From the NCBI GenBank assembly GCA_003864495.1, contig ML133389.1, positions 2,341,560 to 2,405,559 of the forward strand: a stretch of 64,000 bases of DNA, given 5' to 3'. A model generated the notes under the pieces. It saw only the letters and a program-made list of their open reading frames with translations. It was not told where the DNA came from and searched no databases. Source of the stretch: Nemopilema nomurai (Eukaryota; Cnidaria; Scyphozoa; Rhizostomeae; Rhizostomatidae). The position numbers and the translations under genes are program-made. Below, piece by piece: positions 40,701-63,656 of this stretch (its first letter is position 1; every line of letters starts with the position of its first letter).

Positions 40701-43700
40701 GAAAGCGTCTAATTGATAAAACTAAAACACAGCTCTGCAAAGCACAGGTTTTAAAATTGCCTTTTTATTTGACAGTAAATGAAGATTGGAACGGCTGTAA
40801 TCCAGAACTAAAGGCAGGAAAAACTTCGAAATCAAAAGTCAGTTTGAAGGTCATGTCGCAAAGGGCAAAGGGCAAAGGTGGACATAGAATTGATAACTTG
40901 GCAATAGGAAAGAAAGGACAACCTTTACTGGACGTTTGACTAAACACTTCGCCTACTCGAATCTCTGTGGGTGCCTGCAATTAGTCATTTTAAAACGTGA
41001 CTCAACAAGACCTTCGCCTGACCAAACATGACCTACAACAGTGGACAAACATCGAAGAAAGTCAAGGGCGGATTCAGGGAGAAATCTGACTACAGCAAAG
41101 GAAGGGAAAATTTTAGAGCCACGCCCTTCAGGCTGTCAAAAATGAAGGCCACACCCATTTTATGTGAATACTATTGTTCTGTTGTTGGTCATATGATCAA
41201 AATGTTTGTTAGTGGTCAGCGCTAAAATCATATAATAAAATTTAACAAAGGCTTTGACCCCTGTTTTCTGTTAGGAATGGGTCACATTCACAGAACGGAA
41301 ATCGCAAGGGCTATTGTTGACATTTTCGTTAGCATAATAATTGCATAATAAACCAGATGCAAATGCACGTAAAGGTAGGTCGTAAAAGTTAAGGTGGTAC
41401 AGATAGTTTCGTTTAGAAGGATACTCGCAAGCGGCTTTTCCTGCACACTCAGTCTCCGAGCTGCAATTCTTTCCGATAGCTCCACCGTAGCTACACGTTT
41501 TCCCATCACAGCACGGTCCCTCCGAAGGACTGAAAGCAAAATATCAACAAATTACCAACACATAGGTGGCATAGAATGACTAGCCTAGCAGTGTTCTAGC
41601 GAATAGGAAATGGGGCCTAATTCGAAAATGTAATCACAGCTTCCAAGTCGCACCTGTATTCTTCTGACTGGTGATTGGCTAGAAGATATTTTTGAAGCAA
41701 TCCTAATCAAACTCACCGATTATCCCCTTCCCCAACTAACCATGTTACAGGACCAATCAAATAATTATCTGAAATCACGTTACTTGTTATTTAGGTATAT
41801 AAATCAAGAGATTGGAATTGAGGCTGGGGTTTTGATGATTTGAATGGGGTCTTTTCTGGCTATTCTTTACCGTTATGATCTATCAAACCATTCCACCACA
41901 GCTACATTCCTCTTTTACTACTCCCTTTTCAACACCCCATTTCGCCACCCCTTTTCACCTACCCCCTTTCCACAATTCCCCTTTTTACCACCCCATTTCC
42001 CCATCCACCTTTTACCTACCCACTTTTCACCACCCCTTTTACCTACCCCCTTCCACCACCCCTTTTACCTACCCCCTTTCCACAACCCCCTTTTCACCAC
42101 TCCATTTCCCCATCCACTTTTCACCTACCCACTTTTCACCACCCCTTTTACCTATCCCCTTCCACCACCCCCTTTCAACAACCCCCCTTTTCACCACCCC
42201 TTTTAGCCCCCCCTTCCACCACCCCTTTCCACAACCCCCCTTTCCACAACCCCCTTATCACCACCCCTTTCCCCATCCACTTTTCACCACCCTCTTTCAC
42301 AACCCCCCCTTTTCACCACCCCTTATCCATTAATATGCAGCTCGGTTTCTTACCTGCACTTTGTCGGCGACTTGGCATTCGTCGTGTTGTATTTGCAATT
42401 ATTGTTGGACTTCGGCACGTACTTGTTGCAGCATCGTTCGCTTTTACAGTCATCTTCGTATCCGCAATCGCAGTCCTCATCCTTTTCTACAATCTTGTTG
42501 CCGCAAATGGGGCCGTCCGATTCTAGAAAGCGAAACAAAACAATTTTCTCTCGTTGGATGATCACAGAAGAATTCTTGGGAACTCCTACATTTTGATTCT
42601 AGGTCCTAAAAAGCCCTCTAGTTTTTTAGAAAAGTTTGATAACATTTGGGCAATAATAACAACTGATGCAGTATGGCTGAAAAAAGTACCAATGTCAACC
42701 GAGAAGTTAGAAAGTTAGATCGGGGCAAATACAAAGGGTTAGTGATAACTTATAATGTTTTAACTTTTAATACTTCAAATTTCAAATGAGTAACCGTCAA
42801 TGCTTTCTTCCTCAAATGTGCTTCTAATGTCTCTAACAGCTTTGAACACAAGGCACTGTATTTTTACTTTGAGCTTTTAATAAGCCACCTATCAGACTGA
42901 AAAATAAATAAGCCCCCCTTGAGGCTTAATAAATAAGCTCCCCCCCTTGAGGCTTAATATAGCTTTAACGGTAAATCAGCATAAAAATCAGTAGACTGAA
43001 AAGTCAGAACAATATAATCACTTTCTTTAAGAGGGTGCTAGATATCTGCCTTTCCCTCTCTAGGCAAGCTTTCAAAACAATATTGATTTTTGGTTCCTAC
43101 CTTTGAAACATATATCTGCCTTTGCGTTAAGTACAGGTCCGATGTAATCTCTACTGCACTTAGAAAACTTGTAGTTGTTGCTGTCACTTCCGGACGTTGC
43201 CCTTGGATACATGATGAAGTTGCCACCGCCCGCGGAGCCTGGAGAGCACTCTGGCGAATTCGAGACTGGGTCGTGCTGTAAACGAGGATAGGAAATAACG
43301 AGAACAAAGATTGGACAATGCAATGAAGTGTTCTACTCCTGTATAGACAAGTAAATGAAACAGAATATTAGAAGGAAATCAGATCTGAATAAGTGCTTTG
43401 CGGTACAAAAACTTCACAATATCTAGGAATAGTGGAACCAGTTTTTGAAAACTCAAAATAAATTTTCGTCCGACACATCTCAAGAGTATGTAAACGTGGA
43501 AAATGAAGAATCCAGATTGCGCCAAAACATGCAGTGACGACAATTTTCGTGTAATTGGGCAAGCTAGGTCGTCTTTTCACCTAGGTGTTTTGGAGTCTGT
43601 CTATATTTCAATGGAAAATCCCATTCTTTGTAGACAGAAAGAGTTTGTCTTTTCCCTTGGGCTCTTCTAAAGTGAGGTGTTAAGTAACGCAGATTGGTCA

Positions 43701-60319: not shown

Positions 60320-60587
60320 TCAGCCCTTCTTTGGGTAGTATGGACCAGGGAGATTTTGGACACGACAACACACCGCTCCAGTAGGTCCAGCATGGCCGTA
60401 AACCTTGACGTGTTTGCAATTGCATACGCACTTCCTTCCACCAAGGACTTAAATCCATGACATCCATAGCCGCAGCTGCAACTAGTAGCCTGGGTACTAG
60501 CAGGGCAGATTGCAAAGGTTCCAGGAGATGTGATAAACCTGCATTGAAGGATCGAGTTGCTCGGTGGGCCGGCGGGTCCGGTAAATC
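60320..60587 (-). CDS. Collagen-resistin gene: resistin-like terminal exon with frame slip
   Basis: It starts with the last three triplets (GFTGPAGPP), then [20 protein letters not shown] and CSCGYGC in the frame set by the collagen exons. The rest of the cysteine pattern, [16 protein letters not shown] then [19 protein letters not shown] and TGA (60320-60322), is in the frame shifted by one base; 29 nt instead of 30 separate the two halves, at about 60432-60460. If the frame is not corrected the protein reads on to a TAA at 60298-60300 with a non-cysteine tail. The vertebrate hormones end CCRVQP or CCHLT, close to CCRVQN here. Confidence 0.75.
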
Positions 60588-63500
60588 CTGTAAGTAGATG
60601 ACATGTAAGTTAGAGCACTGAAGAAAAGAAAGCATATGTTCCTAGCCAGTGAAAGGATAATTGAGCCTAGAGGAAAGGACAAAGGCAGCATTTTGATATT
60701 TTATATATATACAGACAGCATCCAGGAAGGCAATGAAGGGACCTACCACGTGGTCCACGCAATCCCCTTGGTCCGCGTAATCCCCTTGGTCCGCGTGGTC
60801 CTGTAAGACCCCTTGGTCCTCTGAATCCACGTGGCCCTCTAAGGCCCCTTGGTCCTCTGAATCCACGTGGCCCTCTAAGGCCCCTTGGCCCTTGTGGCCC
60901 ACGGAGTCCCCTTGGCCCACGGAGTCCCCTAGGTCCACGGAAGCCTCGTGGTCCTCTTGGTCCGGGTGCTCCTTTCTGTCCTTTCATTCCCTTTGGTCCA
61001 CGGAAACCCCTTGGTCCTCTAAATCCTCGTGGTCCCCTTGGTCCTTGTGGCCCGCGGAGTCCCCTTGGTCCTCTAAGTCCCCTTGGTCCTCGGAATCCTC
61101 TTGGTCCTCGGGGGCCAGGTGCACCTTTCATCCCCTTCTGTCCCTTCTGTCCCCTAGGTCCTCTTGGTCCGGCTGGGCCTCTCATTCCCTGAAAAAAGAG
61201 TACTTTTAACTAAATGTTGAAGACCTCTCGCAGGAAAAATACGGTGAATGCCAGGCTGTAATGATGCAATACAATCTGCGAAATATTTAAACCTAAGGAA
61301 TGCTTCGAGCAAAACATGTTGAAGCAAGTAGTTTTCAGTTTGTCCAAAACATTTGGCACACAGACAAGGACCAGAGACAAGCAGAATATTCAGTTACTCA
61401 CTTTTGGTCCTCTGGGGCCAGGGGGTCCTCTAAATCCACGTGGTCCTCTTAAACCTCTTGGGCCTCTAAACCCACGTGGTCCTCTGAGTCCTCTTGGACC
61501 TCTGAAGCCTCTTGGTCCTCTTGGTCCTGCTGGTCCCCTTGCTCCTCTTGGTCCTGCTGGTCCCCTTAGACCTCTGGGGCCGGTTGGTCCCCTTGGACCT
61601 CTGGGGCCGGTTGGTCCCCTTGGGCCTCGTGGGCCGCGTGGTCCTCTTGGGCCAGTGGCACCCTAAAAGGTAGAAGGAGTGATGTGAAGGTTAAACTGTC
61701 AAAGTTCACTGGAGAGACAAAAAGGGGCCTAATTTAATGGGAACACAGAAGGCACAAATTAGGCAGATACCGAGTTACTTTGATCAATTATAAAATTATG
61801 ATGCAGGATAGAAAAAGAAGTAAAGTACCCTTTGTCCTTTCTGTCCCTTTTGTCCTTTTGGTCCTTGTGGTCCTCTTGGTCCTCTAAGTCCGCGAGGTCC
61901 TCTAAATCCACGTGGTCCTCTTGGCCCCCTAAATCCTCTTGGTCCTCTTGCTCCCTTTTGTCCTAAAACGGCAACAATTGACTTAAGCAGACAGTCATAA
62001 TAAACTGCAATTTTAACGGACCTTCATTGTTTTAAACGACCGTTCGGCGACCTTTTACCTTAGGGCGGCATTCCAGTGCTTAAATGAAATTACCAAATAG
62101 AAGAAGAAGTCGTTTACCATTGACTTGGATTTAAGTTATGTTTAGTAAAAAGCTTTTTAAGTAATATATACATGTAGATATTTCATTAAAGTAATAGAAA
62201 TTAGAAGCCTAAGGTGCCAACCTTTTTGTCCCTTAGGTCCTGGCGGTCCACGGAATCCCCTTGGTCCCCTTGGTCCCCTTGGTCCTGCTGGCCCTCGTGG
62301 TCCACGGAATCCTCGTGGTCCCCTGAAGCCTCTGGGTCCTCTGTTTCCCTTCATTCCTTTTTGTCCCATCTGCCCCTTTGACCCGGGTGTTCCAGGGTAT
62401 CCTCTTGGACCTCTAAGCCCTCGTGGACCACGCTGGCCCTTTTGTCCCTTCATTCCTTTTGGTCCGGCTGGTCCTCGGTATCCTCTTGGACCTCTTGGTC
62501 CACGTTGTCCTCTAAAAGACAAGTGAGGATTTGGCATGAAGGAAATAGTTGCTTTATGAATTGCTATAACGGTGTTTTGACATTCGACACAATTAAAAAC
62601 ACCTTTGAACTTGAAACCTAGATAAAAATCACTTTTTACAACTTTTACACAAGTAAAAGTAGATTCTTACTTTTGTCCCTTGGGACCTCTTGGTCCTATT
62701 GGTCCTCTAAATCCTCTTGGACCACGTGCTCCTTTCTGTCCCTTTCTACCGGGGAATCCTCTTGGTCCACGGGGACCTGGAGGTCCGGGTCGTCCTACGA
62801 AGTGGATAAAAACTGCTTAGAAACAGTTGTATGGCTACCGAATGTTGAGAAAAATGAATGTATTTCTGTCGAGGCACGAGGATGGACAGCCTAAATGAAA
62901 AGTGATTGGCCAGGAACAACAAGCTTTAGGCCAGAAGCTTTCTGCGCAAGTACTGCACTGCACAAGGTTCACTGTACGACACCAAATAAGAACACATGAA
63001 TATGCAACGGATAGAGAGATTAAACTTACCAGCGTGGCAGTGGCTACAGAGATATCCCCACGGGTATCCGCCAATGCAGTACTTGCAACCCTTATGGGTA
63101 AGTCCGTATCGGTAGTACTTCAAGTAATAGCCAGCAGCCGAGCTAACGCAAAGGTGAGAGTGGCCCCAGATTTTGGTGCACCGGTAGCCGGATAAGTAGC
63201 CTGAATGCGAAAGAGGAGAATTTATAATTTGATCAGAAAAACTTGGCAACGGATGCTTTTATATAACATTTTTTGTTAGCAAGCTTTAACCAGAACTCCA
63301 AGATAAAATCTACACAAGTCTTGACTTTTGACATTGCTTTTGACATGGGTCTTGTACAAGCGTAGAATAGACTGTGGAAGACGATCGGCTCTGCCACTGC
63401 GGAGGCATAGCCAGGTTGATCGTCGTTTTGAGAAGCAATGACGTAATGAACATACCATGCTTGGAGATTTTCCAGTATGGGTTTCTGTATCCGTGTCTCC

Positions 63501-63656
63501 AGCACAGATGAGGGGTGTACTTTTGGTATGGTGTCTTGACAATATGTGGCAATCCTACGCAGTGGTAACCGGAGTAGTGCGCACTGCCAATGATCTTTAT
63601 AGTAGAAAACGGGGGGTATACAAGTCCTTTATCCTCGCTTGGTTGTTCATCAGAAA
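60320..63656 (-). CDS. Collagen-like secreted protein with Cys-rich N-terminal modules and a C-terminal resistin-like domain (partial, frameshifted)
   Basis: Eight exons were rebuilt (63456-63656, 63030-63200, 62671-62794, 62222-62511, 61829-61962, 61402-61662, 60747-61188, 60320-60587); all phases join, and the 5' end lies beyond the window. Order: an acidic leader (SDEQPSEDK), two Cys/aromatic modules (SGYHCVG and SGYRCTK), then 142 perfect Gly-X-Y triplets rich in Gly-Pro-Arg, Gly-Phe-Arg and Gly-Gln-Lys, with no Asp or Glu. Last comes a domain with the resistin/RELM cysteine pattern: C-X11-C-X8-C-X-C-X3-C, then C-X-C-X-C and CC. The second half is one base out of frame. It is probably an extracellular matrix or mucus-type protein. 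Family and role are unknown to me; mini-collagens and skeletal-matrix collagens do not share this layout as far as I know. Confidence 0.8.
60747..61188 (-). CDS. Collagen-resistin gene: collagen exon 5
   Basis: Forty-nine triplets, [19 protein letters not shown] to GLRGPRG. It contains an internal duplication: [19 protein letters not shown] appears twice, 17 triplets apart. The donor is GTAGGT. Confidence 0.88.
61402..61662 (-). CDS. Collagen-resistin gene: collagen exon 4
   Basis: Twenty-nine whole triplets (261 nt), [19 protein letters not shown] to GPPGPRGPK, phase 0 at both ends. Antisense frames of this repeat look like Gly-Pro-Leu collagens and are not real. Confidence 0.88.
61829..61962 (-). 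CDS. Collagen-resistin gene: collagen exon 3
   Basis: Fifteen triplets, [19 protein letters not shown] to [12 protein letters not shown]. The donor GTACTT is non-consensus after the first four bases, but the next exon continues the triplets without a gap. Confidence 0.8.
62222..62511 (-). CDS. Collagen-resistin gene: collagen exon 2
   Basis: Thirty-two triplets, including [19 protein letters not shown] and [19 protein letters not shown]. Met and Gln-Lys triplets are commoner here than in later exons. The donor GTTGGC is weak but keeps the repeat in register. Confidence 0.85.
62671..62794 (-). CDS. Collagen-resistin gene: collagen exon 1
   Basis: It encodes the first 14 Gly-X-Y triplets, [20 protein letters not shown] onwards, ending GPKGQK across the junction. 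The donor GTAAGA splits the last Lys codon. Confidence 0.85.
63030..63200 (-). CDS. Collagen-resistin gene: Cys/aromatic module B exon
   Basis: It encodes about 57 residues: [18 protein letters not shown], then [34 protein letters not shown]. Six cysteines and nine tyrosines. The start (SGYRC) repeats the SGYHC of module A. CATTCAG and GTAAGT flank it; phase 1 at both ends. Confidence 0.8.
63456..63656 (-). CDS. Collagen-resistin gene: Cys/aromatic module A exon
   Basis: It encodes about 67 residues: [20 protein letters not shown], then [30 protein letters not shown] and PYWKISKHG. Tyr, His, Trp and Lys are abundant. Acceptor TTTCAG; the exon starts with two bases of a split codon, so at least one more exon lies to the right. 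Confidence 0.75.

Follow-up and report, generated by a model that had tools for sequence, protein, structure and literature searches.

Resistin and Trimeric Collagen Architectures

Vertebrate resistin and the resistin-like molecules (RELM, or FIZZ; Pfam PF06954) are small secreted proteins, and a RELM chain of 105-114 residues consists of a signal, a variable middle section, and a C-terminal signature given as C-X11-C-X8-C-X-C-X3-C-X10-C-X-C-X-C-X9-CC-X3-6-END (PMC9869618). Resistin is a naturally trimeric hormone, of which human residues 23-108 serve as a C-terminal trimerization tag (PMC8576046), and RELMbeta trimers are assembled into hexamers via N-terminal disulfides (PMC9869618). Genes for resistin have been recorded in mammals, non-avian reptiles, an amphibian, and the coelacanth (PMC4467842). 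Here, we describe a nine-exon gene of the scyphozoan cnidarian Nemopilema nomurai, eight exons of which lie on the minus strand at 60320..63656 of a 64,000-nucleotide stretch of DNA (the window; assembly GCA_003864495.1, contig ML133389.1, positions 2,341,560 to 2,405,559), and which, judged from its sequence, is a collagen chain bearing a genuine, distant resistin-family domain.

A signal peptide, N-terminal cysteines, a collagen stalk, and a trimeric C-terminal head make up the layout of C1q, adiponectin, and collagens VIII and X, and the present chain follows the same order with a head that is predicted to be trimeric; the difference is that this head is of the resistin family, not C1q. Scavenger-receptor cationic collagens such as SR-A provide a second parallel, having a basic collagenous stretch that is thought to bind polyanions, but SR-A is membrane-bound, whereas the whole 426-residue rod described here is acid-free and the chain apparently secreted. 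Within the Cnidaria, the spongin-like short-chain collagens and minicollagens of Nematostella are likewise non-fibrillar, but they carry derived NC1 or minicollagen cysteine-rich domains (PMC12549020). With vertebrate resistin/RELM, the chain shares the order of the C-terminal ten-cysteine domain, all its spacings but one after a frame break has been bridged, the conserved Gly, Pro, and Ala positions, and the succession of a trimeric stalk (a trimer only by prediction here) and a head. It departs from them in having 654 residues instead of 105-114, a collagen stretch where the hormones have a coiled coil, an X15 loop in place of X9, a longer tail, and an N-terminal eight-cysteine region. With such a length and 142 collagen triplets, the protein bears a resistin domain, yet is not a resistin/RELM hormone.

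A Candidate Resistin-Family Domain Fused to Collagen

The domain is encoded by exon 9 (60320..60587, minus strand), which comprises the last Gly-X-Y triplets, a linker reading SNSILQ, the ten-cysteine domain of the resistin family, and the stop. Cysteines 1-5 are found in frame A (open reading frame, ORF, 60609-60298) as C-X11-C-X8-C-X-C-X3-C, and cysteines 6-10 in frame B (ORF 60448-60320) as C-X-C-X-C-X15-CC-RVQ. Compared with the published signature, X11, X8, X, X3, X, X, and CC match, and X10 matches given one missing base; the departures are the loop of X15 and a tail of 14 residues instead of 3-6. A first-pass annotation of the window had reported this cysteine pattern, including CC and CCRVQ, with five spacings exact and one loop of 15 residues against 9, and the pattern is indeed present on the minus strand, split over the two frames.

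Profile searches identified the same family from several starting points. With a cut-off of 25 bits, the Pfam Resistin model (PF06954) matched the frame A ORF at 30.1 bits (E 7.5e-7), as the sole family at E <= 1, and the tail scanned together with the collagen and ended at the frame break at 27.9 bits, just above the cut-off. Bridging the break with a single unknown residue brought the match to 40.4 bits (E 4.5e-10, model positions 29-88 of 88), so that the profile check which the first-pass annotation had named as able to refute a resistin/RELM-like domain spoke in its favor. A genome-wide scan (213 Mb assembly, 226 contigs) likewise placed the locus above the cut-off. On the collagen-plus-tail protein, Collagen and Resistin were the only Pfam families at E <= 1, with no C1q domain among the Pfam matches; this is not a collagen of the C1q/TNF type.

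A search with the joined domain against 177,635 distinct PDB sequences retrieved RELMbeta (E 4.9e-7) and resistin (5.4e-5 and 8.8e-5). With the first joined form, all three matches at E <= 1 were resistins; with the second, resistins accounted for three of the four at E <= 10, and the remaining one was an antibody chain (E 0.39). The matched resistin entries, which we take to be from mouse, agree with the listed proteins P0001 and P0003. When the domain and two mouse members are aligned as three rows, its Ser12, Gly14, Ala17, Pro20, and Gly31 are identical throughout, as are eight cysteines; the last two cysteines are shared with resistin and lie beyond the RELMbeta fragment used.

Collagen and domain are joined within a single exon. 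Directly upstream of the linker and domain, frame A of exon 9 reads GPA GPP followed by GFT minus one base, and the junction 60747/60587 with exon 8 is GT-AG, of phase 1, and divides a Gly codon. Because exon 9 alone encodes collagen triplets directly before the domain, the collagen-resistin fusion is independent of splice choice, and the proposed joining of the two holds both within exon 9 and across the junction.

The Collagen Rod and Its Charge

The repeat covers residues 149-574 (426 residues) and is uninterrupted, with Gly in place in 142/142 triplets; the whole repeat plus tail scores 257.6 bits with Pfam Collagen. These features, together with a signal-like exon recognized by eye, are those of a collagen domain of the secreted type with a long unbroken Gly-X-Y repeat. 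The rod contains 95 Arg and 23 Lys, a basic total of 118, and no Asp or Glu, giving a net charge of about +118 per chain. Gly-Pro-Arg accounts for 56 of the 142 triplets, and Arg or Lys occupies the Y position in 116.

For comparison, 20 of the 69 collagen-like matches in the genome were fetched and 18 of these loci (L020-L037) examined. Two were the present gene, and all 16 others, which are 13 distinct loci by their first 60 residues (L022 = L025; L035-L037 equal), carry 2-76 acidic residues in their longest Gly-X-X run. An acid-free cationic collagen is unusual in its own right. As a separate observation, L035-L037 and two more places on one contig (C81:10855-124428) are five equal collagen matches of 45.0 bits within some 114 kb, which may be a gene array of recent origin.

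The Frame Break and Alternative Explanations

Taken as a whole, the gene probably encodes a secreted, presumably homotrimeric, polycationic collagen with a C-terminal resistin-family domain as its proposed trimerizing cap. Several observations weigh against this reading. As assembled, the protein would lack head cysteines 6-10, and the best scores depend on bridging. Ahead of CC, the loop exceeds that of resistin by 6 residues. Cysteine spacing alone can yield up to 27.9 bits with a vertebrate profile. The joined domain reaches about 40 bits with Pfam Resistin, versus 94.5-126.5 bits for five vertebrate members scored with the same model, and it is on this account that we regard it as a distant family member. 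Finally, the full-length chain, scored on residues 574-653, yielded 12 candidates in a database that includes nr, UniRef, and EukProt sources, none at E <= 10, in a search that reached proteins of ~360-1144 residues sharing exact five-residue words, and no ortholog with collagen plus resistin emerged within this reach.

The frame break calls for the closest attention. The two domain frames do not form one open frame; the reading shifts somewhere within about 60448-60431 (minus strand), between the fifth and sixth cysteines, with a frame B stop just before 60448, and it fits one missing base. With a hidden Markov model (HMM) built on 119 of 120 listed vertebrate proteins (one human protein was omitted), the score is 32.5 bits for frame A, 6.8 for frame B by itself, -0.8 for the out-of-frame tail of frame A, and 40.1 for the join. 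Joins giving an X10, X11, or X9 loop score 40.1, 38.5, and 36.3 bits, a modest difference. One lost base is the simplest account and gives the join resistin's X10 loop; the frameshift is likely an assembly error or a recent mutation.

If the frameshift is real, the locus could be a recent pseudogene or null allele that lost the complete head its ancestor possessed. The break is present in the assembly, and a genome-wide protein search found no second intact copy, the three further matches (E 0.5-2.3) being taken as chance. Against such decay, exons 1-8 keep an open frame, no splice site is damaged, every triplet is perfect, and each frame keeps the resistin pattern on its own side; because both frames retain the pattern and a single-base loss restores X10, any break is young. 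Single-base errors of this type occur in assemblies, and the present one may be imperfectly resolved, as suggested by STING-domain matches that are paired with near-equal scores and spacing (C78:320347-322718 and C144:100283-102648). These pairs have the appearance of a second haplotype kept in the assembly or of a segmental duplication that is recent. We consider a pseudogene or null allele unlikely.

Small cysteine-rich domains recur, and an unrelated disulfide-rich domain could have converged on a resistin-like cysteine spacing. Identity to the vertebrate proteins is 29-47% over the aligned parts, cysteines counted, among the best 120 of 233 matches, and these 120, all vertebrate by name, include no invertebrate intermediate; the remaining 113 may include invertebrates. 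Convergence is nonetheless opposed by controls in which the residues of the tail were permuted with the cysteines held in place. None of 10,000 such shuffles equaled the 40.1 bits of the joined domain with the vertebrate HMM (mean 2.9, maximum 27.9), and in a Pfam scan of 10 shuffles, three gave Resistin matches of 11.1-15.4 bits, with all 10 staying below the cut-off. Since these shuffles stay below the real score, the similarity to resistin exceeds cysteine spacing, though spacing contributes to it. Among the PDB sequences, moreover, significant scores were obtained for resistins only. Convergence thus appears highly improbable, and the tail is best taken, on sequence grounds, as a genuine distant resistin-family domain.

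A recent vertebrate source of the domain, by horizontal transfer or contamination, is barely credible: it draws on a published survey that was limited to vertebrates (PMC4467842) and on the vertebrate names of the best 120 of 233 matches, but the domain's 40 bits fall far short of the 94.5-126.5 of the five vertebrate members, and after a recent transfer a closer resemblance to one particular vertebrate sequence would be expected. The domain is, moreover, fused to collagen within one exon of a gene on a 3.1 Mb contig, and a published table lists Pfam Resistin for sea anemones (PMC6214176).

Exon Organization and the N-Terminal Region

Each of the eight introns is GT-AG, their phases agree, and 565 codons are open up to exon 9. 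Exon 1, at window-equivalent 64675-64747 on the minus strand, lies about 1 kb further upstream on the same contig, beyond the window, and encodes a signal-like peptide, MARPILIFALVFAVVAPFISA, judged as such by eye. Exon 2 (63456..63656, minus strand, as are all that follow) provides the start of the mature chain and the first part of a Cys/Tyr/His-rich N-terminal region with 2 Cys, and exon 3 (63030..63200) its second part with 6 Cys; both have AG/GT borders and are of phase 1 in and out. The collagen repeat begins in exon 4 (62671..62794) and continues through exons 5 (62222..62511), 6 (61829..61962), 7 (61402..61662), and 8 (60747..61188), the open frame surrounding the last scoring 101.4 bits with Pfam Collagen. 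In order, the protein therefore consists of the signal-like peptide, a 127-residue N-terminal region, 142 Gly-X-Y triplets, the linker, and a 74-residue ten-cysteine tail; about 633 of the 654 residues remain after the signal peptide.

The 127 residues of the N-terminal region (63030-63656, minus strand) are rich in Tyr and His and include eight cysteines. No Pfam, NCBIfam, or significant PDB match was obtained for them, and exons 2 and 3 gave self-matches only in their own genome at E <= 0.1, which leaves this as an orphan region. An internal duplication relating exon 2 to exon 3, suspected by eye, was rejected because 655 of 1000 shuffles scored as high.

Proposed Assembly and Function

On the reading preferred above, a polycationic collagen with a resistin-family cap, the mature chain of about 633 residues would be secreted and would probably form a homotrimer, as the signal-like peptide, the triplets, and the C-terminal profile match suggest. 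By homology, the ten cysteines would form resistin-type internal disulfides within a resistin fold. Three C-terminal heads may then associate, set the register, and nucleate the triple helix from the C-terminal end, a role comparable to that of the C1q, NC1, and adiponectin heads on their own collagens. The human resistin stretch 23-108 presumably includes the coiled coil, so its use as a tag gives no proof that the head alone trimerizes. By analogy with the N-terminal disulfides of RELMbeta, the N-terminal eight-cysteine region could crosslink trimers into larger assemblies.

Because the rod is polycationic, with 95 Arg, 23 Lys, and 0 Asp/Glu, polyanion binding is its likely job; candidate partners would be acidic glycans of mucus or matrix, the surfaces of bacteria, or the polyanion found in stinging capsules. 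Since the rod likely binds polyanions, the protein is likely a 'defense collagen' or a mucus, capsule, or matrix collagen rather than a hormone.

Distribution and Previous Descriptions

The published vertebrate survey of 2015 reported resistin as absent from 17 ray-finned, 1 cartilaginous, and 1 jawless fish, an absence that search sensitivity may explain (PMC4467842). Resistin-like proteins are named in bichir-group fishes among the matches listed here (P0097 from Erpetoichthys, the reedfish, and P0115 from Polypterus), and the 2015 survey had none in its 17 ray-finned fish.

The first-pass annotation knew of no description of the collagen-resistin layout. This stands for the fusion, of which no description was found in literature searched by title and abstract start, with few subscription papers covered, but it does not stand for the Resistin domain in sea anemones, which Table 2 of a comparative coral study lists under 'Present in ANEMONE not in coral', its single mention in the main text (PMC6214176). 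The anemone proteins implied by that table were not recovered in the ortholog search with its five-residue-word limit. In the main text of a Nematostella matrisome paper, 'resistin' has 0 occurrences (PMC12549020), and a seeming mention in PMC12345144 was rejected, the word being 'resisting'. The 90-residue joined form found one candidate and no match, and the viral contigs yielded no relative. Proteomes may already contain the fusion without its having been described.

Elsewhere in the window, long overlapping open frames occupy all three forward frames at 41839-42526 (plus strand) and are of low complexity, rich in Pro, Phe, His, and Thr; the one frame scanned gave no Pfam match. An ADAM-like neighbor, suspected by eye, was not supported on checking. 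COX1 was not found in the assembly, which probably contains no mitochondrial contig. Among PDB entries, a STING gene of the assembly matches 5cfp best (141.7 bits, with 138.9 for 6nt6, the top entry beyond the 5cf series), and a TRPM exon matches 6co7 best (115.7 bits, with 110.4 for 7aov). Both entries are Nematostella proteins and, by small margins, point to a cnidarian host.

Implications for the Resistin Family

If the domain is genuine on a collagen stalk in a cnidarian, its origin would lie near the base of animals, and capping and trimerizing a collagen would become a plausible ancestral job for the hormone family. The origin of a medically studied adipokine would then become testable in laboratory cnidarians, and the acid-free cationic collagen could serve as a self-assembling polycation. 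Tentatively, and as a possibility we hold to be rather doubtful, the resistin family may have arisen as the C-terminal trimerizing head of a secreted early-animal collagen, with the vertebrate hormones as the freed head in which a coiled coil replaced the collagen, adiponectin having kept its own, and with the cnidarian form as a polycationic defense or capsule collagen. RELMs have antimicrobial and immune roles, and if this scenario were true, these roles would be tied to an ancestral polyanion-binding matrix protein.

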